DNA from: Oscillospiraceae bacterium
Lineage (GTDB): Bacteria > Bacillota > Clostridia > Oscillospirales > Oscillospiraceae
Assembly: GCA_015067495.1 (NCBI GenBank)
Contig: SVMI01000003.1
Coordinates: forward strand, 116,971 to 180,970
Direction of reading: 5' to 3'
DNA length: 64,000 bases
A program made the position numbers and the translations under genes. The notes under the pieces are model-generated. The model worked only from the letters and a program-made list of their open reading frames with translations, was not told the DNA's origin and searched no databases. This document shows, in pieces, positions 28,874 to 45,544 of the stretch (its first letter is position 1; each line of letters starts with the position of its first letter).

Positions 28874-28876
28874 CAA

Positions 28877-29064
28877 TGATATCCGTTCCTTTCGGAACGG
28901 GTGATATATCTTTGATGTGATATCGCTCTTCGAGCGGTGATATATACCTTCGGCATATGAAGGAACGGATATTATATCGTGCTTGCGAAGCAAGTATATC
29001 ATGCGGCGAATGCCGTATATCATATTGCGTTAGTAATATATCATTCAGAATCCGAAGCAATAAT
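28877..29064. repeat. Array of variable mini-hairpins joined by near-constant GATATATC-type spacers
   Basis: tgatatCCGTTCctttcGGAACGGgtgatatatc...gatatCGCTCttcGAGCGgtgatatata...tatatcatGCGGCgaatGCCGTatatcat. Confidence 0.75.
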
Positions 29065-31534: not shown

Positions 31535-32608
31535 TTATTTTCCGACCTTCAATCTCCAGCCAAATTCGTCGGGGAGTCTGCCCAGCTGGATGCCGGTGAT
31601 GGTATCGTACAGCTTGAGGCTCAATTCGCCGGTCTCGCCGTCCTGAATGGTCATCACATCGTCCTTGTAGCGCAGCTTGCCGACAGGGGAGATGACAGCG
31701 GCTGTGCCGGTGCCGAAGCACTCTTCCAGTGTGCCGTCCGCCTGCGCCTGCAGCAGCTCATCGACGGAGATCTTCCGTTCTTCCACCTCATAGCCCCAGC
31801 TCTTGCACAGCTGGATGACGGAGTTACGGGTGATGCCGGGCAGGATCGAGCCGCTGAGTGCGGGAGTGACCACTTTGCCGGCGATCTTGAAGAAGATGTT
31901 CATGGCACCCACTTCCTCGATGTACTTGCGGTCAACGCCGTCCAGCCACAGAACCTGAGAGAAGCCGGCATCATGCGCCTTCTTCTGTGCGATCAGGGAA
32001 GCGGCGTAGTTGCCGCCGGTCTTGGCAAAGCCAATGCCGCCGCGGACAGCGCGGACATATTCATCCTCGATCCAGATGCCCACGGGGGCAAGACCGCTTT
32101 CATAGTAAGCGCCGCTGGGAGCAAGGATGATCATAAAGAGATAGGTTTTAGACGGAGCAACGCCCAAAAACTCATCGGTTGCGATGATGAAGGGGCGGAT
32201 GTACAAGGATGTACCCGGCTCGGTGGGGATCCAGTCCCGATCCACATCCACAACGGTGCTGACAGCCTGCACGAAATCTTCAACGGGAATCTGGGGAATC
32301 ACCAAACGGTCGTTGGTGGAATTGGTGCGCTTGGCGTTCATGTCGGGACGGAACAGATAAACCTCGCCATCCTCATTTTTGTAAGCCTTCAGACCTTCGA
32401 ACATCTCCTGACCGTAGTGGTAGACCATGGCGGCAGGGGAGAGGCTGATGTTGTGGAACGGCTCGACCCGGGGATCGTGCCAGCCCTTGCCCTCGGTGTA
32501 GTTCATGACGAACATGTGGTCTGTAAAGATCTTGCCGAAGCCCAGCTTCTGACCCTTTGCGGGCTTTTCCTTGGGTTCGGTCGTCTTGATAATCTTAATA
32601 TCCAGCAT
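31535..32608 (-). CDS. ilvE: Branched-chain amino acid aminotransferase
   Basis: VEPFHNISLSPAAMVYHYGQEMFEGLKAYKNEDGEVYLFRPDMNAKR; EVGAMNIFF; GTGTAAVISPVG. Confidence 0.95.
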   Translation of the reverse strand: MLDIKIIKTTEPKEKPAKGQKLGFGKIFTDHMFVMNYTEGKGWHDPRVEPFHNISLSPAAMVYHYGQEMFEGLKAYKNEDGEVYLFRPDMNAKRTNSTNDRLVIPQIPVEDFVQAVSTVVDVDRDWIPTEPGTSLYIRPFIIATDEFLGVAPSKTYLFMIILAPSGAYYESGLAPVGIWIEDEYVRAVRGGIGFAKTGGNYAASLIAQKKAHDAGFSQVLWLDGVDRKYIEEVGAMNIFFKIAGKVVTPALSGSILPGITRNSVIQLCKSWGYEVEERKISVDELLQAQADGTLEECFGTGTAAVISPVGKLRYKDDVMTIQDGETGELSLKLYDTITGIQLGRLPDEFGWRLKVGK

Positions 32609-32621
32609 AGGAAACATCCTT

Positions 32622-33158
32622 TCAAACGTAATCGTAGCCGATTTGCAGAGCCTTGCAGTTGATGTCGATCAGGTTTACCTTCTTGGCGGGGATAAATGCC
32701 TCGAAGGTCTCTTTGTTATTCTCGAATGCGACAGCGCCGGTCTCCTTGATGACCTTGCCGGTCAGAACCATATTGGAAAGGGTGGCAAAGCCCGCATCCT
32801 TGGCAAGCTGGGTCGCGGGGATGTAGAACACATCCACATCGGTACGCTCGACCTTGGCATCGATCAAAGTGGAGTCGATGAAGATCTTACCGCCGGGAAC
32901 GACGGAATCGACAAACTTCTGAAGGCTGGGCAAATTCATAGCGACCAGCACATCAGGCTCAGTGATGATGGGGCTGCCAACGGGCATATCCGAGAGAATG
33001 ACGGAGCAGTTCGCCGTGCCGCCGCGCATTTCAGGGCCGTAAGAGGGCAGCCAAGAGACATTCTGCTCCTCCAGCATACCCTTGTAGGCGAGGAACTTAC
33101 CGGCAAACAGAACGCCCTGTCCGCCGAAGCCTGCAATCAGGATCTGAGTGGTTTTCAT
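32622..33158 (-). CDS. korC: 2-oxoacid:ferredoxin oxidoreductase subunit gamma
   Basis: [40 protein letters not shown]. Confidence 0.92.
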
Positions 33159-33913
33159 TTTGCAGCCTCCTTTGCAGCGGTTCTGTCCTTATAAACGCCG
33201 ATGGGGTAGTAGGGGAGCATATCGCTTTCCACCCACTCCAGTGCCTGCTGAGGCGTCATACCCCAGTTGGTGGGGCAGGCAGAAACAACTTCCACAAGGC
33301 TGAAGCCCTTGCCCTCCATCTGGTTCTGGAATGCCTTTTTGATCGCCTTCTTGGCGTTCTTGACGTTCTTGACGTTGTTGACAGCCACACGGGTCACATA
33401 CTCGGGACCCTCCAGCGTTGCCAGCATTTCGCAAACACGGATGGGCCAGCCGCAGTGGTTGACATCACGTCCGTAAGGGGAGGTCTGGGTGACCTGACCG
33501 GGAAGGCTGGTGGGTGCCATCTGACCGCCGGTCATGCCGTAGATGGCATTGTTGACGAAGATGACGGTGATATTTTCGTTTCTTGCCGCGGCGTGGACAG
33601 TTTCAGCCATGCCGATGGAGGCGAGGTCGCCATCGCCCTGATAGGTAAAGACGATGTTCTCGGGACGGCAGCGCTTGATGCCGGTTGCGGTGGCGGGAGC
33701 GCGTCCGTGGGCAGCCTCGATCATGTCGCAGGCGAAGTAATCATATGCCATAACGGCACAGCCGACGGGAGCGACACCGATGGTCTTGCCCTCGATGCCC
33801 AGCTCGTCAATGGCTTCGGCGACCAGACGGTGAATGATACCGTGGGGGCAGCCGGGGCAGTAGTGCAGCACGGCATCGGTCAGGGCTTTGGGTTTTTCAA
33901 ATACGACAGCCAT
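33155..33913 (-). CDS. korB: 2-oxoacid:ferredoxin oxidoreductase subunit beta (TPP-binding)
   Basis: [49 protein letters not shown]. Confidence 0.93.
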
Positions 33914-33916
33914 AGT

Positions 33917-34975
33917 TTACACTCCTTTCTGGGCATTGCGGATGGCATCCAGCACCTGATCGGGGCTGGGGATCATGCCGCCGGCGCGGTTGCAAAGAGA
34001 AACGGGACGCTTGCACTCCGTTGCAAGGCGGATGTCCTCGATCATCTGACCCATGTTCAGCTCCACAGAGATGAAGCTCTTGACCTTGTCTGCCGCAGCG
34101 CGCAGTGCCTTGGTGGGGAAGGGCCAAAGGGTGATGGGACGGATCAAGCCAACCTTGATGCCCTCGGCTCTTGCGGCAACGACGGCATTTTTGGCAACGC
34201 GGGAGGCAATACCGAAGGCAACCACGCAATACTCGGCATCTTCCATCATGTACTCTTCCCACATGGGCTCGTTCTCTTCGACGATTTTATAGCGCTCGTA
34301 GCGCTCGAAATTCTTCTGCTCCAGCTCATCGGGCTTCAGGTACAGAGAGTTGACAATGTTGTGCTTGCGCTTACACTCCGTGCCGGTCAGTGCCCAAGGC
34401 TTTTCATAGGTCTCCACCTCGGCATCCTCAAAGGAGATCGGCTCCATCATCTGACCGATGGTGCCGTCAGCAAGGATCATGGCAGTCATCAGGTATTTGT
34501 CGGCAAGATTGAAGCCCTTGATGGTCAGAGATGCCATTTCCTGCACGGATGCAGGGGCGAGAACGATCATACGGTAGTCACCGTGACCGCCGCCCTTAGT
34601 CGCCTGAAAGTAGTCGGACTGGGAGGGCTGGATGCCGCCCAGACCCGGGCCGCCACGCTGGACGTTGACCACCAATGCGGGAACATCAGAACCGGCAATG
34701 TAGCTCAGACCCTCGGATTTCAGGCTGATTCCGGGGCTGCTGGAGGAGGTCATGACACGCATGCCGGCAGCAGCAGCGCCATAAACCATGTTAATGGATG
34801 CGATCTCGCTTTCCGCCTGCAGGAAGACACCGCCGATCTTGGGCATCTTCTTTGCCATGTAGGCAGCGATCTCGGTCTGGGGGGTGATGGGGTAACCGAA
34901 GTAGTGGCGGCAGCCGGCACGGATGGCGGCTTCGGCGATGGCTTCGTTGCCCTTCATAAGTACTTTCTGAGCCAT
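33917..34975 (-). CDS. korA: 2-oxoacid:ferredoxin oxidoreductase subunit alpha (VorB/KorA-like)
   Basis: GNEAIAEAAIRAGCRHYFGYPITPQTEIAAYM; TSSSSPGISLKSEGLSYIAG. Confidence 0.93.
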   Translation of the reverse strand: MAQKVLMKGNEAIAEAAIRAGCRHYFGYPITPQTEIAAYMAKKMPKIGGVFLQAESEIASINMVYGAAAAGMRVMTSSSSPGISLKSEGLSYIAGSDVPALVVNVQRGGPGLGGIQPSQSDYFQATKGGGHGDYRMIVLAPASVQEMASLTIKGFNLADKYLMTAMILADGTIGQMMEPISFEDAEVETYEKPWALTGTECKRKHNIVNSLYLKPDELEQKNFERYERYKIVEENEPMWEEYMMEDAEYCVVAFGIASRVAKNAVVAARAEGIKVGLIRPITLWPFPTKALRAAADKVKSFISVELNMGQMIEDIRLATECKRPVSLCNRAGGMIPSPDQVLDAIRNAQKGV

Positions 34976-35220: not shown

Positions 35221-35919
35221 TTAGCCGAACAGCGGGCGAGCCTTCTGCTCCGGCAAATCAAAATATTTCTCCTGCAGGCGCATGGGAAGCAGATTTTCCA
35301 CCTTGCCTGCAAGTTGCTCTGCGACCGCTTCTTCCGCAGTGGTCAGCCAAAGGGGCAGCCCGGAAAGGTCGCTGAGCTTTTTCATGTATTCACCCGTTTC
35401 CAGCACGGCTTCGGCGGTGGTTTCCGTGCCGAGGTTGGCGTTGTTGACGATGCAGGTGAAAGCAAGCGAGCAAGCTGCTTCAATTTCACGCATCACTTCC
35501 AGTGCTTCCTCAGGGGTACGGGTCAGGGGACGGTAGGGGTTGGCAACGAATGCCATGCGGTAGTCGTTTTCCTCCTTGATAAAGGGGGTATAACGCCCCA
35601 GTGCATAAGCACCCCGGTCATCGCCGCCGATGTCCATGATGCCATAGATCGATTTGTCCTGCACCAGCCGGTATGCCTCCGCCGGAAGGGCAGGGAGATC
35701 GACATTGGTGTTGGCAAATTGGGGTGAGACAAGCTCCACACCGGCATTTTCCAGCACGGCGGCACTGTCTTTGGTGCGGAAGTAGGGATTGACGATGTCA
35801 AGGTCTGCGATGCAGACCTTTTTGCCCTCCGCCGCCAGATGCAGGGCATAGTTGACAGCGATATTGGTCTTGCCGCTGCCGTAATGCCCGGCAAATAATG
35901 TAAGTCTTTTGTGATTCAT
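35221..35919 (-). CDS. P-loop (MinD/CobQ-like) nucleotide-binding protein
   Basis: LFAGHYGSGKTNIAVNYALHLAAEGKKVCIADLDIVNPYFRTKD. Confidence 0.8.
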   Translation of the reverse strand: MNHKRLTLFAGHYGSGKTNIAVNYALHLAAEGKKVCIADLDIVNPYFRTKDSAAVLENAGVELVSPQFANTNVDLPALPAEAYRLVQDKSIYGIMDIGGDDRGAYALGRYTPFIKEENDYRMAFVANPYRPLTRTPEEALEVMREIEAACSLAFTCIVNNANLGTETTAEAVLETGEYMKKLSDLSGLPLWLTTAEEAVAEQLAGKVENLLPMRLQEKYFDLPEQKARPLFG

Positions 35920-35939: not shown

Positions 35940-36043
35940 AAATGGATAATTGATAATTGACAATTAAGGTGTTGCCTGCGGCAAAGATTTATAATTTATC
36001 GGCGAAGCCGATACCTAAATTGTCCATTGTACATTGTCCATTT
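35940..36043. repeat. MITE-like imperfect palindromic element
   Basis: aaatggataattgataattgacaatta...aattgtccattgtacattgtccattt with internal hairpin atcggcgaagccgat; reaches the stop codon of the gene ending at 36042. Confidence 0.7.
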
Positions 36044-38333
36044 ATAGCTTTTTGCGGATGATCTTGCCACTGATCGTCTTGGGCAGGCTTTCCTTGAATT
36101 CGACGATTCTCGGGTACTTGTAGGGCGCGGTGCGCTTCTTGACGTAGTCCTGAATCTGCTTTTTCAGCTCGTCTGTACCCTTAAAGTCCTTCACAAGCAC
36201 GATGCTTGCCTTGACCACCTGACCGCGAACCTCGTCAGGAGCAGCGGAAACGCCGCATTCCAGCACGTAAGGCAGCTCCATGATGACGTTTTCGATCTCA
36301 AAGGGTCCGATGCGGTAGCCGGAGGACTTGATGACGTCATCGGCACGACCTACGTACCAGTAGAAGCCGTCTTCGTCCATCCATGCAAGGTCGCCGGTGT
36401 GGTAGAAGCCGTCGCGCCAAGTCTCGGCGGTGACCTCTTCATTGCCCTCGTAGGCATAGGCAAGACCGCAGGGAAGACCGTTCTTGATGTTGATACAGAT
36501 CTCGCCGGTTTCGCCGGGTTCTGCTTCTTCCCCTTCGGCGGTGAGCAGATGCACATCGTAAAGAGGAACGGGCTTGCCCATAGAGCCAAGCTTGTGGGAG
36601 CTGCCGTTGAGGTTGCCGATGATGAGGGTGGACTCGGATTGACCGAAGCCTTCCATAATCGCAAGCCCGGTCGCCTTCTGGAACTGGCGGTAGACCTCGG
36701 GATTCAGGGCTTCGCCGGCGGTGGAGGCATGCTCGATGCTGCTCAGGTCAAAGCGGGAAAGATCCTGCTTGGCAAGCATGCGGTACATGGTGGGCGGTGC
36801 GCAGAAGGTAGTGATCTGATACTTCGCAAACAGGGGCAGGATCTTTTCTGCGTCAAAGCGGTCAAAGTCGTAGACAAAGATGGGTGCTTCGCACAGCCAT
36901 TGTCCGTAGATCTTGCCCCATGAGGACTTTGCCCAGCCGGTGTCGGAGATGGTCAGATGCAGACCGTCAGGGTTGACCCGGTGCCAGTATTTGGCGGTGA
37001 TGAAATGACCCAAGGGATATTTGTAGTTGTGCGCTGCCAGCTTGGGGTAGCCGGAGGTGCCGGATGTAAAGAACATCAGCATGGGGTCTGAGCCACAGGG
37101 AGCATCCTCAGCGCGGGCAAAGTGGCTGGAGTACATGGGGTACTCGTCATTGAAGTCGTGCCAGCCGTCCTTTTTGCCGCCCACGAGGATCTTGTGTTTC
37201 AGATCGGGACACTGGGCGGCGGCTGCATCCACCGCATCGGAAACATCGCCGTCAGCGGTGCAGAGGATGGCACTGATCTTGCCGAACTGGAAGCGGTAGG
37301 TGAAATCTTTTTCCAACAGCTGGTTGGTAGCGGGGATCGCCACGGCACCCAGCTTATGCAGCGCCAGAACACTGAACCAGTACTGATAGTGGCGCTTCAG
37401 CACCAGCATCACCCGGTCGCCCCGCTTGATGCCCATCGCCTTAAAATAGTTGGCGGTACGGGCAGATTCCTTCTTCATATCCTGGAAGGTGAAGCGGCGT
37501 TCTGTTCCGTCCTCTGCAAGGTGGAGCATCGCCAGCTTTTCAGGCTGGGTTCTGCCAAGCTCGTCCACAATGTCAAATGCAAAGTTGAACTGTTCCTCAC
37601 CCTTGAAGGAGATCTCCTTCAAAAGACCGTCCTCGACCTTGCGATCGATAAACTTGCGGTAAATGCGCTTCTTCTTGTCCGGCTCGCGGCGCTTGACATC
37701 GGGAACGGCAACGGTAGCTGCCTGTTCGTCCTCACGGGCGGCAGAGTTGCTCAGCACGATGGCGTAGAAGGCGCAATCCTCGCCCTGCACGGCGATCATG
37801 CCGTGGGGGATAGAGGAGTCGTAATAAATACAGTCGCCGGGATTCAGGATCTCAGACTTGCCGCCGATCTGGATCTTCATGTGACCGCGGATGACGATGT
37901 CACATTCCTGACCCTCGTGGCTGGTCAGCTCGATCTGCTCGCTTTCAGCACCCTCACGATAGCCAAGCTCCATATAAAGGGGCAGGGCAATACGGTTGCG
38001 GAAGCCGGCAGCCAGGTTGTAGCCGATCATGTGATGGGCTTCCTCGATCTTTTGACCCTCGCCCTTACGCGTCAGCGCATAGGTGCGCAGCTTCGGGCTG
38101 TGACCTTCCAGAAGGTCGGACATATCGACACCGAAGACCAGCGCGCAGCGGTACAGAAAGGCGATGTTCAGATCCTTCTGACCTGCCTCACAAAGGCGGT
38201 ATTCCTCCACCGACAAGCCTGTGCGGGCGGCGACCTCTTCTTCAGAGAAGCCGGAAACCTCACGAAGCTCCCGGATGCGGCTCGCCATTTCCTTGATCTT
38301 GTATGTAATTTCGGTCAGATTGTCGTTTCTCAT
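36042..38333 (-). CDS. XRE HTH - cupin - AMP-binding (acyl-CoA synthetase) fusion protein, under Val T-box
   Basis: HTH IRELREVSGFSEEEVAARTGLS; cupin YYDSSIPHGMIAVQG; ANL MLMFFTSGTSGYPKLAAHN, GYRIGPFEIENVIMELPYV. Confidence 0.92.
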   Translation of the reverse strand: MRNDNLTEITYKIKEMASRIRELREVSGFSEEEVAARTGLSVEEYRLCEAGQKDLNIAFLYRCALVFGVDMSDLLEGHSPKLRTYALTRKGEGQKIEEAHHMIGYNLAAGFRNRIALPLYMELGYREGAESEQIELTSHEGQECDIVIRGHMKIQIGGKSEILNPGDCIYYDSSIPHGMIAVQGEDCAFYAIVLSNSAAREDEQAATVAVPDVKRREPDKKKRIYRKFIDRKVEDGLLKEISFKGEEQFNFAFDIVDELGRTQPEKLAMLHLAEDGTERRFTFQDMKKESARTANYFKAMGIKRGDRVMLVLKRHYQYWFSVLALHKLGAVAIPATNQLLEKDFTYRFQFGKISAILCTADGDVSDAVDAAAAQCPDLKHKILVGGKKDGWHDFNDEYPMYSSHFARAEDAPCGSDPMLMFFTSGTSGYPKLAAHNYKYPLGHFITAKYWHRVNPDGLHLTISDTGWAKSSWGKIYGQWLCEAPIFVYDFDRFDAEKILPLFAKYQITTFCAPPTMYRMLAKQDLSRFDLSSIEHASTAGEALNPEVYRQFQKATGLAIMEGFGQSESTLIIGNLNGSSHKLGSMGKPVPLYDVHLLTAEGEEAEPGETGEICINIKNGLPCGLAYAYEGNEEVTAETWRDGFYHTGDLAWMDEDGFYWYVGRADDVIKSSGYRIGPFEIENVIMELPYVLECGVSAAPDEVRGQVVKASIVLVKDFKGTDELKKQIQDYVKKRTAPYKYPRIVEFKESLPKTISGKIIRKKL

Positions 38334-38353: not shown

Positions 38354-38617
38354 AAAAAACAGCCCGTCTCAAAGATTGATCCTTTGAGACGAGCTGAGTA
38401 TCAACCCGCGGTACCACTCAAATTGCATCTGCTTTCGCAGATACCACTCATGGGCAGCTTGCCCGCAGCACTGACGCAGCTGGCGCGGGAGAGGTCTAAT
38501 AGCTTTCGCGTTCTTCTCTCCGGCTCGGGAGCGACAGACCGGCTGCATCCACCGTGGCTTGCACCAACCGCCACTTCTCTTGGGTGGGTCTTGCAGAAGA
38601 TCCTCTCCGTCAAAGCC
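38354..38617 (-). promoter_or_regulatory. T-box riboswitch, specifier GTC (Val) at 38533-38535
   Basis: AGAGAAGTGGCGGTTGGTGCAAGCC Stem I distal loop; TGTCGCTCCCGAGCC specifier loop; GAGTGGTACCGCGGG T-box (38404-38418); terminator GCCCGTCTCAAAG/CTTTGAGACG + T-run. Confidence 0.92.
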
Positions 38618-38628
38618 TTTTCTCAAAA

Positions 38629-38657
38629 ATCATATCACTTTATTGTGTAATTGTCAA
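38629..38657 (-). promoter_or_regulatory. Promoter of Val T-box unit
   Basis: TTGACA - 17 bp - TATGAT on minus strand. Confidence 0.85.
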
Positions 38658-38661
38658 CAAA

Positions 38662-40935
38662 TTATAGCTTATTTCTCATGATCTTACCGCTGATGGTTTT
38701 GGGCAGCTCGTCACGGAAAACAACGATACGGGGGTACTTGTAGGGCGCGGTGTGGGTCTTGACGTAGTTCTGGATCTCCTTCTTCAGTTCCTCGGTGCCT
38801 TCTGTACCGGGAACGAGAACGATGCTCGCCTTGACCACCTGACCTCTGACCTCGTCGGGAGCGGCGGAAACACCGCACTCCAGAACGTAAGGCAGCTCCA
38901 TGATCGTACTCTCGATCTCGAAGGGTCCGATGCGGTAGCCGGAGGACTTGATCACGTCATCGGCTCTGCCCACATACCAGTAGTAGCCGTCCTCATCCCG
39001 CCATGCAACATCGCCGGTGTGATACATACCGTCGTGCCAGACGGAGTCGGTGGCTTCCTGATTGCGGTAGTAGCCCAGATACACGCCGCAGGTGGGAGCG
39101 GGATCGGTGTGGATGACGATCTCACCGTTGACGCCGTCAGCCACGCTCTTTCCGTCGCTGTCTACAATATCGATGCCATAGCCGGGAATGGGCTTGCCCA
39201 TAGCACCGGGCTTGATGGCTGTACCGTACAGATTTGCGATACCGAGGGTCATTTCTGTCTGACCGAAGCCCTCGTGGATGCGAAGACCCGTTGCCTTTTC
39301 AAACTGATAGAAGACCTCGGGGTTCAGTGCCTCGCCCGCAGTTGTGGCATGGTGGATAGAGGAAAGATCAAACCGGGAAAGATCCTGCTTGATCAGCATC
39401 CGATACATGGTAGGCGGCGCGCAGAAGGTGGTGATGTTGTACTTTGCAAACATGGGCAGGATCTTCTCTGCGTCAAATCGGTCAAAGTCATAAACAAACA
39501 CACTGCCTTCGCACAGCCACTGACCGTAGAGCTTGCCCCACAGAGCTTTGCCCCAGCCGGTTTCGGAGATGGTAAAGTGCAGACCGTCCTTTTCCACCAG
39601 ATGCCAGTACTTGGCGGTCACATAGTGACCCAGCGCGTATTTGTAAGAATGCATTGCCATCTTGGGATAGCCGGTGGTGCCGGAGGTGAAGAGCATCAGC
39701 ATGGGATCATCGCCGCAAGGAGCATCTTCAGTACGGAGATACCGGCGGCTGAAGAGACAGTATTCTTCATTGAAATCGTGCCAGCCTTCTCTCTGACCGC
39801 CTACAAGCACCTTGGTCAGGGTCAATCCGGCGGACTTTTCAGCCAGCTCTACCTGATGGGCGGTCTCGCCGTCTGCGGTACACAGGATCGCGGAAACGCC
39901 GCCGGCTTCAAAGCGGTAAACGAAGTCGTGTTCCTTCAGCTGATTGGTGGCGGGGATGGCGATGGCACCCAGCTTGTGCAGACCGAGGATCGCATACCAG
40001 AATTGATAGTGGCGCTTCAGCACCAGCATCACCCGGTCGCCCCGCTTGATGCCGAGAGATTTGAAGTAATTGGCACTCTGACTGGAAGCGTCCTTCATGT
40101 CCTTGAAGGTGAAACGGCGCTCGGTCATGTCGTCAGCAATGTGGATCATTGCCAGCTTGTCGGGATCCTTGCGGGCGATGGCATCGACGGTGTCGAAGGC
40201 AAAGTTGTAACGCTCAGTGTTGGCGAAGTTGATGCCGGTCATGACACCGCTGTCATCCTCGCTGCCCCAGACGAACTCATTGCACAGCAGCTTCTCGTCC
40301 TGCACGCGCTTTGCTTTGGCGGTGGGATGATGGAGAGCCGTGTCGGTTTTGTCGCCTGCCATGATCATGGACAGGAACACACAGTCGCTGCCGTCGATGG
40401 CGATCATGCCATGGGGAGTAGAGGACTGGTAAAAAATGCTGTCGCCCTCGTGAAGAACCTCCTCGTGTTCGCCGATGCGGATGCGCATGGAGCCACGGAT
40501 GACAAGGTCAAATTCCTGACCGTCGTGGGTGGAGGTATGGATGGGCTTGTTCTGAAGCTCCTCGGAGTATTCGTAGGTGACCCAGTAGGGGGTAGCCAGC
40601 TTACGGCGGAACATGGCAGCCATGTCCTGAATGGTGATGCCGTCCTCACTGGCCGTGACCATGCCCTTGCCCCGGCGTGTGACAGTATAAGCAGAGAGCT
40701 TGGCGGTGTGACCTTCCAGCAGCTCCGTCAGCTCCAGACCGAAGATCTTGGCACACTTGTGCATAAAGGAAAAAGGCAGATCTGCAGCACCTGCTTCGTA
40801 TTCCATATACAGATCCTGAGAAATCTCGGTCTTCTCAGCCATTTCCTGTATGCTGTAACCCACGATCGCACGCATTTCGCGAATTCGTGCCGCCACATCC
40901 ATTAACTGACTGCCGACTGTGTTGTGATTACTCAT
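38662..40935 (-). CDS. XRE HTH - cupin - AMP-binding (acyl-CoA synthetase) fusion protein, paralog, under Ile T-box
   Basis: Start MSNHNTVGSQLMDVAARIREMRAIVGYSIQEMAEKTEIS; cupin FYQSSTPHGMIAIDG; LMLFTSGTTGYPKMAMHS. Confidence 0.92.
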   Translation of the reverse strand: MSNHNTVGSQLMDVAARIREMRAIVGYSIQEMAEKTEISQDLYMEYEAGAADLPFSFMHKCAKIFGLELTELLEGHTAKLSAYTVTRRGKGMVTASEDGITIQDMAAMFRRKLATPYWVTYEYSEELQNKPIHTSTHDGQEFDLVIRGSMRIRIGEHEEVLHEGDSIFYQSSTPHGMIAIDGSDCVFLSMIMAGDKTDTALHHPTAKAKRVQDEKLLCNEFVWGSEDDSGVMTGINFANTERYNFAFDTVDAIARKDPDKLAMIHIADDMTERRFTFKDMKDASSQSANYFKSLGIKRGDRVMLVLKRHYQFWYAILGLHKLGAIAIPATNQLKEHDFVYRFEAGGVSAILCTADGETAHQVELAEKSAGLTLTKVLVGGQREGWHDFNEEYCLFSRRYLRTEDAPCGDDPMLMLFTSGTTGYPKMAMHSYKYALGHYVTAKYWHLVEKDGLHFTISETGWGKALWGKLYGQWLCEGSVFVYDFDRFDAEKILPMFAKYNITTFCAPPTMYRMLIKQDLSRFDLSSIHHATTAGEALNPEVFYQFEKATGLRIHEGFGQTEMTLGIANLYGTAIKPGAMGKPIPGYGIDIVDSDGKSVADGVNGEIVIHTDPAPTCGVYLGYYRNQEATDSVWHDGMYHTGDVAWRDEDGYYWYVGRADDVIKSSGYRIGPFEIESTIMELPYVLECGVSAAPDEVRGQVVKASIVLVPGTEGTEELKKEIQNYVKTHTAPYKYPRIVVFRDELPKTISGKIMRNKL

Positions 40936-40959: not shown

Positions 40960-41211
40960 AAAAAACGCCTCAAGCAAAAGCTTGAGACGAGCAAAAACAT
41001 ACCCGCGGTACCACTCAAATTGCAACAGCTGTTGCCACCTTCAGACTCCAACAAGTCCTATCCCTTAACGCGGGCAAACGGGAGAAGCCTACTCATGACA
41101 CTTTTCAGTCCTCCGGCTCGGAAGTGATAGGTATGCGGAGCGAAAATTGCCGGTTTTCACCAACCACCGACTCTCTGAAAATTTCCTGCTCCAACCGTCT
41201 TCGTCAAAGCC
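40960..41211 (-). promoter_or_regulatory. T-box riboswitch, specifier ATC (Ile) at 41126-41128
   Basis: CAGAGAGTCGGTGGTTGGTGAAAACCGG; CCTATCACTTCCGAGCC specifier loop; GAGTGGTACCGCGGG (41001-41015); terminator CGTCTCAAGC/GCTTGAGGCG + T-run. Confidence 0.92.
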
Positions 41212-41229
41212 TTTTTCCATGTTGCAAAC

Positions 41230-41346: not shown

Positions 41347-41365
41347 GTCACATATATGTTTGAAA

Positions 41366-41615
41366 GACTTTGATGGAAATCTCGTCCTTTCCGGGACGCT
41401 TCAGAGAGCCGGCGGTTGGTGTGAGCCGGTGCGGAAGGGCTGGACGATCTGGTTCCGGAGTCGATCCTGTGAACGGCTGCTTAGTAATGGGATCCGTATT
41501 CCTGCGTTAAAGGATAGCGCTTGTTGGAGCGTGAAGAGATCTCCCGTCAGGGGGATAATCAGGGTGGTACCACGGATAGAAATTCGTCCCTGAGGCAGCT
41601 TGCCTCAGGGCTTTT
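41366..41615 (+). promoter_or_regulatory. T-box riboswitch, probable specifier CTG (Leu) at 41449-41451
   Basis: CAGAGAGCCGGCGGTTGGTGTGAGCCGG; GACGATCTGGTTCCGGAGTC specifier loop; AGGGTGGTACCACGG T-box (41561-41575); terminator CCTGAGGCA/TGCCTCAGG + T-run. Confidence 0.9.
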
Positions 41616-41636
41616 TGTTTGAAAGGAGTGTTTGAC

Positions 41637-43037
41637 ATGCTGAAAGTCAGCGACATTACAATGAAACAGGTGGCAGAGGGCTTTTCTCTTACCTTTAAGG
41701 AAAAGATCGAGCTTTCCAAGCTGCTTGACAAGCTGGGTGTGTCGGTGATCGAGGTGGAGGGCTTGAGCGGTTCCCGTTCCGATGCCCTTCGTATCAAATC
41801 CATCGCCTTGGCGGTGACGGACAGCGTCGTTGCCGCTCCTGTTGAACTGAGTGAGGAGAGCATCGCCGCCACTTGGGCAGCGTTGCAGCAGGCGAAGCAT
41901 CCCCGCCTGCAGGTTTGCGCGCCGGTCAGCTCTGTACAGATGGAATATCTGTACCATAAGAAGCCCGATGCCATGCTTAAAGCCATCGCGGATGCAGTCA
42001 GAGCCTGCGCCGCATTGACCGATACGGAATTTATCGCTCAGGACGCGACCCGGAGCGAGCCGGAATTTCTCTGTCAGGTGATCGGCGCGGCGATCGAAGC
42101 CGGCGCAAAGACCGTGACGGTCATGGACTCTGCCGGCAGAATGCTTCCCAATGAGTTTTCCGCGTTTGTTGCAGGCTTGTATCAGATAATTCCCGCGCTC
42201 AAAGATGTCACGCTGGGCATCGGCTGTGCCAATACACTGGCAATGGCTGACAGCTGCGTCATCGCGGCGGTGGCATGCGGCGCAGGGGAGGTCAAGGCGG
42301 CTGCCTATCCCATCGACAGTGCTGATCTTGGTAATGTTGCGAGAATCATCGCTGCAAAGGGTGACAGCTTCGGCGCGCAGACCGGCATCCGCGTGACCCA
42401 GCTCAGCCGCAGCATTGAGCAGATCAACCGCATGTGCAGCACCGACAGAAGCAAGACCTCTCCCTTCGACACTGGTGTGCAGGAGGAGTCCGGCATTTAT
42501 CTGACAGCCCACGACGACGTTCAGGCAGTCCGTATGGCGGTTGAGCGGCTTGGCTATGATCTGTCGGAAGACGAGGTTTTGAAGGTATACGAAGCGTTCA
42601 GCCGCATCGCGGCAAAGAAAACGCAGGTCAATATCCGCGAGCTGGATGCCATTGTTGCGTCCGCTGCCATGCAGGTGCCGCCGACCTATGTGCTGGAGTC
42701 TTATGTGATCACTTCCGGCAATACGGTCTCCGCGACGGCGCATATGAAGCTCGTCAAAAACGGCACAGCACTGGAAGGTGTTTATCTTGGAGATGGACCG
42801 ATCGATGCGGCATTCCTTGCCATCGAGCAGATCACCGGTCAGCATTATGAGCTGGATGATTTCCAGATTCAGGCTGTGACCGAGGGTCGTGAAGCAATGG
42901 GTCAGACGGTGGTCAAGCTCCGTGCCGGCGGCAAGGTGTACTCCGGCAGAGGTATTTCCACCGATATCGTTGGTGCCAGCATCCATGCGTACCTGAGCGC
43001 ACTGAATAAGATCGCATATGAGGAGGAGACGGTATGA
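41637..43037 (+). CDS. LeuA/2-isopropylmalate-synthase-like protein with LeuA regulatory domain but altered metal-ligand motifs (possible pseudoenzyme)
   Basis: SLTFKEKIELSKLLDKLGVSVIE, DATRSEPEFLCQVIGAAIEAGAKTV; C-term LESYVITSGNTVSATAHMKL...GRGISTDIVGASIHAYLSALN. Confidence 0.85.
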   Translation: MLKVSDITMKQVAEGFSLTFKEKIELSKLLDKLGVSVIEVEGLSGSRSDALRIKSIALAVTDSVVAAPVELSEESIAATWAALQQAKHPRLQVCAPVSSVQMEYLYHKKPDAMLKAIADAVRACAALTDTEFIAQDATRSEPEFLCQVIGAAIEAGAKTVTVMDSAGRMLPNEFSAFVAGLYQIIPALKDVTLGIGCANTLAMADSCVIAAVACGAGEVKAAAYPIDSADLGNVARIIAAKGDSFGAQTGIRVTQLSRSIEQINRMCSTDRSKTSPFDTGVQEESGIYLTAHDDVQAVRMAVERLGYDLSEDEVLKVYEAFSRIAAKKTQVNIRELDAIVASAAMQVPPTYVLESYVITSGNTVSATAHMKLVKNGTALEGVYLGDGPIDAAFLAIEQITGQHYELDDFQIQAVTEGREAMGQTVVKLRAGGKVYSGRGISTDIVGASIHAYLSALNKIAYEEETV

Positions 43038-45544
43038 AGCTGTCCTTTTCCACCCGTGGCTGGCCCAACCTGAGTTGGGAAGAGATGATGCAGACCGCTT
43101 TGGATATGGGTTTTTCCGGCATTGAGGTCTACAATCTGCCCAAGCTGACCGATTTTATCGATAAAAGCGGCCCGTTCCACAAATACCAGACGGCAGCAAC
43201 AGCCCGCCAGTTAAAAGACAAAAAGCTCCAGATCCCTTGCTTCGACACACCCTGCGATCTGTCCAGCGATGATACGGCTGTGGATACCCTTTCTGCACTG
43301 ATGGAGGTTGCCCACAATGCACAGGTTCCTTATGTGGTCGCCTGCGTGCTGCAGGATCGGGAAGACGTGGTGATCCGTCGGCTGTCTGTTCTGCTCCAAA
43401 AGGCGGAGCAGCTGGGCGTTGGCTTGCTGATCAAAACCAGCGGCATCTATGCCGACACCAAGCGTCTGCGTGAAATGATGGATGGCTTTGCAAGCGACTA
43501 TCTGGGCGTTTTGTGGGATGTGCATCATCCCTACCGGGACTTTTCGGAAAGCTGCGACACCACGATCAAAAATCTTGGTGCCTATGTTTGCCACGTGCAT
43601 CTGCGTGATTCGGATGACGAAGGTGTCTATCAGCTGATCGGGGAGGGTACGATGCCCATTGCCGACGTGATGCGGGCGTTGTCCTCTGTCAATTACGACG
43701 GCTTTATCTCTCTGGAGTGGAAGCCGGAATGGTTGGAGGATCTGCAGGATCCTGAGGTCATCTTCCCGTACTTTGTCAACTACATGAGCCGCTTCCATTC
43801 CACCCGCGGCATGAAAAAATCCCTCTATTTCAACCACGACGGCACCGGACAGTACATCTGGAAGAAGGATGAGCTGATCAACCTGACTTTCCCGCAGGTG
43901 CTGGATCGGGTGGCGGAGGAATTTCCCGATCAGTACTGCTTCAAGTACACCACCCTCGATTACACCCGCACCTATGCGGAATTCCGCGAGGATGTGGATC
44001 GTTTTGCCCGCGCTCTCGTTTCCATGGGCGTGAAGGCTGGATCAAAGGTGGCAGTTTGGGCGACCAATGTGCCGGCATGGTATATCACCTTCTGGGCAAC
44101 CACCAAGATCGGCGCGGTGTTGGTCACCGTCAATACCGCCTATAAGATCCATGAGGCAGAGTATCTGCTGCGCCAGTCCGATACACACACGCTGGTGATG
44201 ATCGATTCCTGTCTGGACTCCAACTATGCCCAGATCATCAATGCGCTTTGCCCTGAAATCGCAGGCACCAAAGCCGGTCAGCCCCTGCATTGCAAGAAGC
44301 TGCCCTTCTTGCGCAATGTCATTACTGTCGGCTTCAAGCAGCCCGGCTGCCTGACCTTCGATGAGGCAATGGCGCGCTATGATCTTGTAAGTCGCGAGCA
44401 GGTGGCAAGGATGGCGGCGGCGGTTCGCCCTGACGATGTGTGCAATATGCAATATACCTCCGGCACGACAGGCTTCCCCAAGGGCGTTATGCTGACCCAC
44501 TATAATGTGGTCAACAACGGCAAATGCATCGGCGACCGCATGGGTCTGTCCACGGCAGACCGCATGATGATCCAAGTTCCCATGTTCCACTGCTTTGGCA
44601 TGACGCTGTCCATGACATCCTCCATGACCCACGGTGCTACCATGTGTCCGATGCCTTACTTCTCTGCAAAGGCGTCTCTTGCCTGCATCAATCAGGAAAA
44701 GATCACCTGCTTCAACGGCGTTCCGACCATGTTCATCGCCATGTTCAATCATCCTGATTACCGCAAGACGGACTTCAGCCACATGCGTACCGGCATCATG
44801 GCGGGTGCAGGGTGTCCCCCGGAGCTGATGCGCCGTGCCGCACAGCCGGACGAGATGAATATGTATGGCATCGTCAGTGTCTACGGTCAGACCGAATGCG
44901 CCCCCGGCAATACCATGTCCTCTTGGACGGATTCGCTGGATGTCCGCACCAATACCGTAGGCTACAGCTTCCCCCATGTGCGTTGTAAGATCATCGATCC
45001 CGAAACCGGCGAGGAAGTGCCGGACGGAGTCAACGGCGAATTTTGCGCCAAGGGCTACAACACCATGAAGGGCTATTACAAAATGCCCCAAGCCACCAAG
45101 GACACCATCGATGCCGACGGCTGGTTGCATTCCGGCGACCTTGCCTGCCGCGACAGTGAGGGTAACTTCCGCATCACCGGCAGACTCAAGGATATGATCA
45201 TCCGCGGCGGTGAGAACATCTACCCCAAGGAGATCGAGGAGTTTATCTATACCCATCCCGCGGTCAAGGATGTGCAGGTCATCGGCGTGCCGGACAAGAA
45301 GTACGGCGAGGAGATCATGGCGTGCATCGTGCTGAAAGAGCCGGGCGCGATCACCGAGGCGGAGATGAGTGACTACATCAAAGCCAGTATGGCACGTCAC
45401 AAAGTACCGAAGTACATCGAATTTGTGGATAGCTTCCCCATGAACGCTGCCGGCAAAGTCCTCAAGTACAAAATGCGCGAGGATGCCGCAAAGCGGCTCG
45501 GTCTTGTGGGCGACGGCTCGGACACTGCCAAGAGTACATTGTAA
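43034..45544 (+). CDS. Fusion of xylose-isomerase-like TIM barrel with AMP-binding acyl-CoA synthetase
   Basis: N-term MKLSFSTRGWPNLSWEEMMQTALDMGFSGIEVYN and GVLWDVHHPYRDF; C-term MQYTSGTTGFPKGVMLTHYN, VYGQTECAPGNTM, GRLKDMIIRGGENIYPKEIEEF. Confidence 0.92.
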   Translation: MKLSFSTRGWPNLSWEEMMQTALDMGFSGIEVYNLPKLTDFIDKSGPFHKYQTAATARQLKDKKLQIPCFDTPCDLSSDDTAVDTLSALMEVAHNAQVPYVVACVLQDREDVVIRRLSVLLQKAEQLGVGLLIKTSGIYADTKRLREMMDGFASDYLGVLWDVHHPYRDFSESCDTTIKNLGAYVCHVHLRDSDDEGVYQLIGEGTMPIADVMRALSSVNYDGFISLEWKPEWLEDLQDPEVIFPYFVNYMSRFHSTRGMKKSLYFNHDGTGQYIWKKDELINLTFPQVLDRVAEEFPDQYCFKYTTLDYTRTYAEFREDVDRFARALVSMGVKAGSKVAVWATNVPAWYITFWATTKIGAVLVTVNTAYKIHEAEYLLRQSDTHTLVMIDSCLDSNYAQIINALCPEIAGTKAGQPLHCKKLPFLRNVITVGFKQPGCLTFDEAMARYDLVSREQVARMAAAVRPDDVCNMQYTSGTTGFPKGVMLTHYNVVNNGKCIGDRMGLSTADRMMIQVPMFHCFGMTLSMTSSMTHGATMCPMPYFSAKASLACINQEKITCFNGVPTMFIAMFNHPDYRKTDFSHMRTGIMAGAGCPPELMRRAAQPDEMNMYGIVSVYGQTECAPGNTMSSWTDSLDVRTNTVGYSFPHVRCKIIDPETGEEVPDGVNGEFCAKGYNTMKGYYKMPQATKDTIDADGWLHSGDLACRDSEGNFRITGRLKDMIIRGGENIYPKEIEEFIYTHPAVKDVQVIGVPDKKYGEEIMACIVLKEPGAITEAEMSDYIKASMARHKVPKYIEFVDSFPMNAAGKVLKYKMREDAAKRLGLVGDGSDTAKSTL

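Follow-up and report, generated by a model that had tools for sequence, protein, structure and literature searches.

A valine T-box leader heads an acyl-CoA synthetase-Vor-IlvE operon that probably serves valine synthesis from isobutyrate in an Oscillospiraceae bacterium

The T-box leader TB1 (38354-38622, minus strand) very probably acts by tRNA-Val antitermination, so that shortage of valine induces an operon for converting isobutyrate to valine, while the related synthetases ANL2 and ANL3 play the parallel part for isoleucine and leucine. The leader was found in a window of 64,000 nucleotides, the whole stretch of DNA analyzed here, which belongs to a 1.98-Mb draft genome (97.1% complete). 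Three T-box units lie side by side in it: a Val box followed by an acyl-CoA synthetase (ANL1), a 2-oxoacid:ferredoxin oxidoreductase (Vor) and IlvE; an Ile box followed by ANL2; and a Leu box followed by a LeuA-like gene and ANL3.

TB1 is a genuine and complete leader. Transcription would start from a sigma-70-type promoter, TTGACA-17-TATGAT (38629-38657, minus strand), which agrees with the consensus at 11 of 12 positions; the scan found one such site where 0.4 are expected. The match to the T-box family RF00230 is full length (38622-38382; 81.7 bits, E 2.8e-18, local search), and the leader ends in an intrinsic terminator of 16 pairs with a U-run (38354-38396, minus strand; annotated as a feature at 38360-38396) that folds at -22 kcal/mol and excludes the antiterminator. 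The score lies under the Rfam gathering score of 93 bits, which is a threshold of the library and not an anatomical feature; a default Rfam scan of the window therefore shows only the two neighboring leaders, TB2 and TB3. Stem I contains the internal loop that bears the specifier, as T-boxes do. The antiterminator is made of TTTGAG/CTCAAA, a 7-nt TGGTACC bulge of the TGGN type, and GCGGG/CTCGT, and its 3' strand doubles as a strand of the terminator, CTCGTCTCAAA, making the two structures mutually exclusive.

Comparison of 24 orthologous leaders shows that 95% of the cells in Stem I and the antiterminator are paired, against 36-50% in slid controls. Compensatory changes occur at 16 pairs, all in Stem I, and none of 500 shuffles scored as high; the antiterminator pairs are nearly invariant and all are kept. 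Since Stem I of TB1 folded as a single sequence is no better than its shuffles (z 0.17), the structural case is built on covariation, not on energy. The complete leader described in an earlier sequence-only reading (promoter, T-box, terminator) is thus real. Its T-box mechanism is canonical and the RNA is an ordinary T-box.

The specifier of TB1 is GTC (Val; 38533-38535, minus strand), located in the internal loop immediately 5' of the CTCC strand of a CTCC/GGAG helix. The genome has 13 T-boxes, and nine leaders with a known target were used to calibrate a rule in which the specifier triplet is followed by 6 nt and GAG. The rule reads the expected codon in valS (GTC), ileS (ATC), metS (ATG), thrS (ACC), pheS (TTC), trpB (TGG) and tyrS (TAC); alaS (GCC) and cysS (TGC) also give the expected codon but need a looser anchor. 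The same rule gives GTC for TB1, ATC for TB2 and CTG for TB3. A tRNA-Val(GAC) gene is present in the genome, alongside the TAC and CAC isoacceptors. The valine specificity proposed by the sequence-only reading therefore holds, given the register from nine leaders, the GTC of valS at the same place and the presence of only GTC or GTA in orthologues. The purine that it placed after the specifier is there in TB1 (G) but is not a strict rule of the genome: C follows the specifier in the ileS, tyrS and Phe-ANL leaders. That another tRNA reads an overlapping triplet, for example TGT (Cys), is highly improbable. The T preceding GT(C/A) is indeed kept in most orthologous leaders, but the calibrated register and the valS leader fix the frame, only a GTN reading makes the exchange of C and A synonymous, and the Ile and Leu leaders behave in the same way. 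Automatic calls of a Pro or Ser specifier in seven Val leaders were rejected; in these the GAG anchor is mutated (e.g., to AAG) and GTC is still in place.

The gene behind TB1 encodes, as had been proposed, an acyl-CoA synthetase of the ANL type. ANL1 (36042-38333, minus strand) is a fusion of an XRE helix-turn-helix, a cupin and an AMP-binding domain, and is predicted to be an isobutyryl-CoA synthetase from Pfam domains, the MbcS model at a score under its cut-off, and the structure 3etc. It is followed on the same strand by a CooC/ParA-like ATPase that is conserved in the operon (35221-35919); VorB, the 2-oxoacid:ferredoxin oxidoreductase alpha subunit (33917-34975; NF005507, 549.9 bits, above the subfamily cut-off of 399); the beta (TPP) subunit (33155-33913; domain and family models); the gamma subunit (32622-33158; PF01558); and IlvE, the branched-chain aminotransferase (31535-32617; TIGR01123, 412.8 bits, above the equivalog cut-off of 250). 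With IlvE and VorB in the operon, the valine specifier matches the metabolism downstream. The target was earlier seen as an exception to T-box logic; that view does not hold, as ANL1 opens what appears to be a valine biosynthesis operon (Vor and IlvE) in a genome with no detectable IlvC or IlvD.

ANL2 (38662-40935, minus strand) is a paralogue of ANL1 (58% identical) with the same XRE-cupin-ANL architecture, and is predicted to be a 2-methylbutyryl-CoA synthetase. It lies behind TB2 (40980-41216, minus strand; RF00230, 104.2 bits), whose specifier is ATC (Ile) at 41128-41126. MbcS (NF047394) is the nearest NCBIfam model for both proteins, at 419.8 bits for ANL1 and 434.2 bits for ANL2 against an equivalog cut-off of 850; with scores so far below the cut-off, the two may be said to work like MbcS, not to be MbcS, and homology does not fix their substrates. 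The XRE helix-turn-helix and cupin are fused to the synthetases at 38333-36042 and 40935-38662 (minus strand), and these could possibly be DNA-binding enzymes that add a second layer of control.

On the opposite strand, TB3 (41361-41594; RF00230, 115.4 bits) carries the specifier CTG (Leu) at 41449-41451 and precedes the LeuA-like gene (41619-43037, plus strand). The start of the next gene (43034-45544, plus strand) overlaps the LeuA-like stop; it encodes an AP_endonuc_2 domain (xylose-isomerase-like TIM barrel) fused to ANL3, a predicted isovaleryl-CoA synthetase on the strength of models and context. ANL3 is FadD-like by model and thus a different kind of ANL from ANL1 and ANL2. MbcS acts on 2-methylbutyrate and isobutyrate, hardly on isovalerate, and feeds FabH (PMC10026030). 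This preference fits the presence of two MbcS-like paralogues behind the Val and Ile boxes and of another kind of ANL behind the Leu box. Neither the Ile-box nor the Leu-box genes have a Vor of their own.

The LeuA-like protein lacks the catalytic residues of isopropylmalate synthase (IPMS) but keeps the LeuA allosteric domain (PF08502, 107 bits, cut-off 24.9). In an alignment to 3rmj, the catalytic R-D-G and the metal-binding H-x-H-N-D are preserved in none of 47 LeuA-like sequences where aligned, and the gene is nevertheless conserved behind Leu T-boxes (45 leaders). Completion of a normal leucine pathway by this gene was ruled out, as the catalytic motifs are lost and there is no separate LeuC; the only aconitase-family protein in the genome is a 647-aa aconitase. 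Our guess is that the LeuA-like protein is a leucine-sensing pseudoenzyme that controls ANL3.

Searched with a nucleotide profile made from the 13 leaders of the genome, 80 related loci, which come mostly from ruminant gut metagenomes, for the most part showed T-boxes at equivalent positions; the closest named loci belong to Oscillospiraceae MAGs from the guts of herbivores, chiefly ruminants. Across the related loci one arrangement is found again and again, Ile box-ANL2-Val box-ANL1-ATPase-VorB-beta-gamma-IlvE, accompanied in most relatives by a divergent or nearby Leu box-LeuA-like-ANL3 unit. The specifier before ANL1 is a valine codon in 66 of 67 leaders (GTC 24, GTA 42; the exception is L043), that before ANL2 is ATC in all 61 readable leaders, and that before the LeuA-like gene is a leucine codon in 45 of 45 (CTG 27, CTC 14, CTT 4). 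The loci are close relatives and such counts are not independent; changes counted on trees are a fairer measure. In a phylogeny of 141 ANL proteins, the Val versus Ile label shows a single change, at the split of the paralogues (support of 100 on either side). The Val codon, by contrast, has switched between GTC and GTA five times or more, always synonymously. The Leu codon, traced on a separate tree, has changed four times or more. Thus the specifier evolves like a codon: the Val/Ile class changes once while the Val and Leu codons change repeatedly.

In 12 related loci with both ANLs (L022, L023, L024, L034, L036, L037, L041, L046, L047, L048, L069 and L093), no Val box was detected between ANL2 and ANL1, where the gap is 19-271 nt. 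The Val box is therefore not indispensable, and the Ile box may be what drives ANL1 in these loci. L043 and L049 have no detected ANL2 but do have an Ile box upstream of ANL1, possibly reflecting a changed tRNA control of ANL1.

IlvC and IlvD had no match in the genome, although each was found in 14 of 14 control genomes; it is unlikely but possible that both were missed through the draft state of the assembly. Among 99 genomes including this one, split by hand according to the fusion ANL, IlvC is encoded in 2 of 31 genomes with the fusion and in 33 of 68 without it (Fisher p 3e-5, uncorrected for kinship). Within the genus, the proportions are 1 of 18 and 18 of 43, respectively.

A T-box activates its genes in response to the uncharged cognate tRNA; valine synthesis is therefore the expected task of an operon in which a Val box precedes ANL, Vor and IlvE. 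Under valine shortage, uncharged tRNA-Val would base-pair both with the GTC of Stem I and with the UGGU bulge, allowing the antiterminator to form and ANL1, the ATPase, Vor and IlvE to be transcribed. ANL1 would then convert external isobutyrate, with ATP and CoA, to isobutyryl-CoA; the Vor complex would carboxylate this reductively, using CO2 and reduced ferredoxin, to 2-oxoisovalerate; and IlvE would aminate the oxoacid to valine. Similar routes, with Vor and IlvE in common, would start with ANL2, behind the Ile T-box, from 2-methylbutyrate to isoleucine, and with ANL3, behind the Leu T-box, from isovalerate to leucine. Gene content by itself is neutral as to direction. An aminotransferase and Vor set serves branched-chain amino acid oxidation in anaerobes, and oxidative use of this Vor is compatible with its sequence. 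A catabolic, Stickland-type operon, in which transamination of valine and oxidation by Vor to isobutyryl-CoA would provide energy and the ANL would run in reverse, is nonetheless quite unlikely. A Val T-box induces at valine scarcity, the reverse of the regulation that catabolism calls for; being AMP-forming, the ANL costs ATP; and with IlvC and IlvD missing the cell needs a source of the oxoacid.

The ANLs might instead act in membrane-lipid salvage: once branched-chain amino acids are exhausted, they would prime fatty acid synthesis with branched acyl-CoA. Such a role has been suggested for the Staphylococcus aureus enzyme MbcS, the closest family, which supplies FabH (PMC10026030). We consider it unlikely here: the Val-box operon goes on with Vor and IlvE rather than with fatty acid genes, distinct Val, Ile and Leu boxes correspond one to one with the amino acids, and IlvC and IlvD are absent. 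Amino acid and lipid uses of the ANLs could coexist. The isobutyrate-to-valine operon, with its isoleucine and leucine counterparts, remains the preferred explanation, and it could account for the synthesis of all three amino acids in genomes that lack IlvC and IlvD.

Elsewhere in the genome, a Phe (TTC) T-box heads an operon of an ANL, an SSS sodium symporter, IorA, IorB and PaaK (L014 1297-8439, G000:C15), apparently the same logic applied to an aryl acid, for aryl-acid-to-Phe salvage. Phe auxotrophy was ruled out as its background because prephenate dehydratase is encoded, and the operon is therefore taken as salvage. A Tyr (TAC) T-box is followed by an M28-like peptidase gene and then tyrS (L016 2268-4705, G000:C19). 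A Gut-1 RNA (RF01706, 66.5 bits; 28874-28948, plus strand) occurs in the window directly after five clustered tRNA genes.

For rumen and gut anaerobes, isobutyrate, 2-methylbutyrate and isovalerate are well-known starting points for valine, isoleucine and leucine, and rumen bacteria use branched acids as growth factors. From sequence alone an anabolic ANL and Vor look no different from catabolic ones, nor can the acid of each paralogue be told; the T-box codon supplies both the direction (induction by starvation) and the substrate (which amino acid). Acyl-CoA synthetases of many uncultured Clostridia from herbivore guts can thereby be given annotations that are open to test. A broader model is more tentative: the cluster may form an acid-to-branched-chain-amino-acid regulon in which the specifier names the ANL substrate, the LeuA-like protein, co-transcribed with ANL3 and still bearing the leucine-binding allosteric domain, exerts feedback on isovalerate activation as a leucine-sensing pseudoenzyme, and the XRE-cupin part of ANL1 and ANL2 gives acid-dependent control at the DNA level. 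No acyl-CoA or ferredoxin-oxidoreductase target turned up when the main text of two open T-box surveys was searched by term, and full-text literature searches with T-box and acyl-CoA terms returned nothing. As the two surveys are a part of the major ones, absence from the literature is unproven. The regulon looks new in that amino-acid-specific T-boxes assign substrates to paralogous acid-activating enzymes and a conserved, catalytically dead LeuA-like protein stands under a Leu T-box.

Several known systems resemble parts of this one. TB1 shares with the valS- and ilv-type Val T-boxes of Firmicutes in RF00230 the promoter, a Stem I with AGAGA and GGTTGGTG, the specifier loop, the UGGN-bulge antiterminator, the competing terminator and a Val specifier matching tRNA-Val(GAC); it differs from them in its acyl-CoA synthetase-Vor-IlvE target and in scoring below the gathering cut-off. 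ANL1 and ANL2 resemble S. aureus MbcS, a methylbutyryl-CoA synthetase whose substrates are Val and Ile precursors, over the whole ANL part, but they carry a fused XRE and cupin and are predicted to act in amino acid rather than lipid synthesis. The best solved-structure match of ANL1 is the AMP-binding protein of PDB 3etc (687 bits, residues 225-761), although the matched chain lacks the XRE-cupin part. Rumen bacteria form valine from isobutyrate (Allison & Peel 1971, cited in PMC7356843) and isoleucine from 2-methylbutyrate (cited in PMC7356843). The chemistry predicted here and its ecological setting are those of such Allison-type reductive carboxylation, by which rumen anaerobes obtain Val, Ile and Leu from branched short-chain acids. 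The present analysis differs in proposing, from sequence, the genes, the amino-acid-specific regulation and the assignment of paralogues. These three together appear to be new, while the pathway is old biochemistry.
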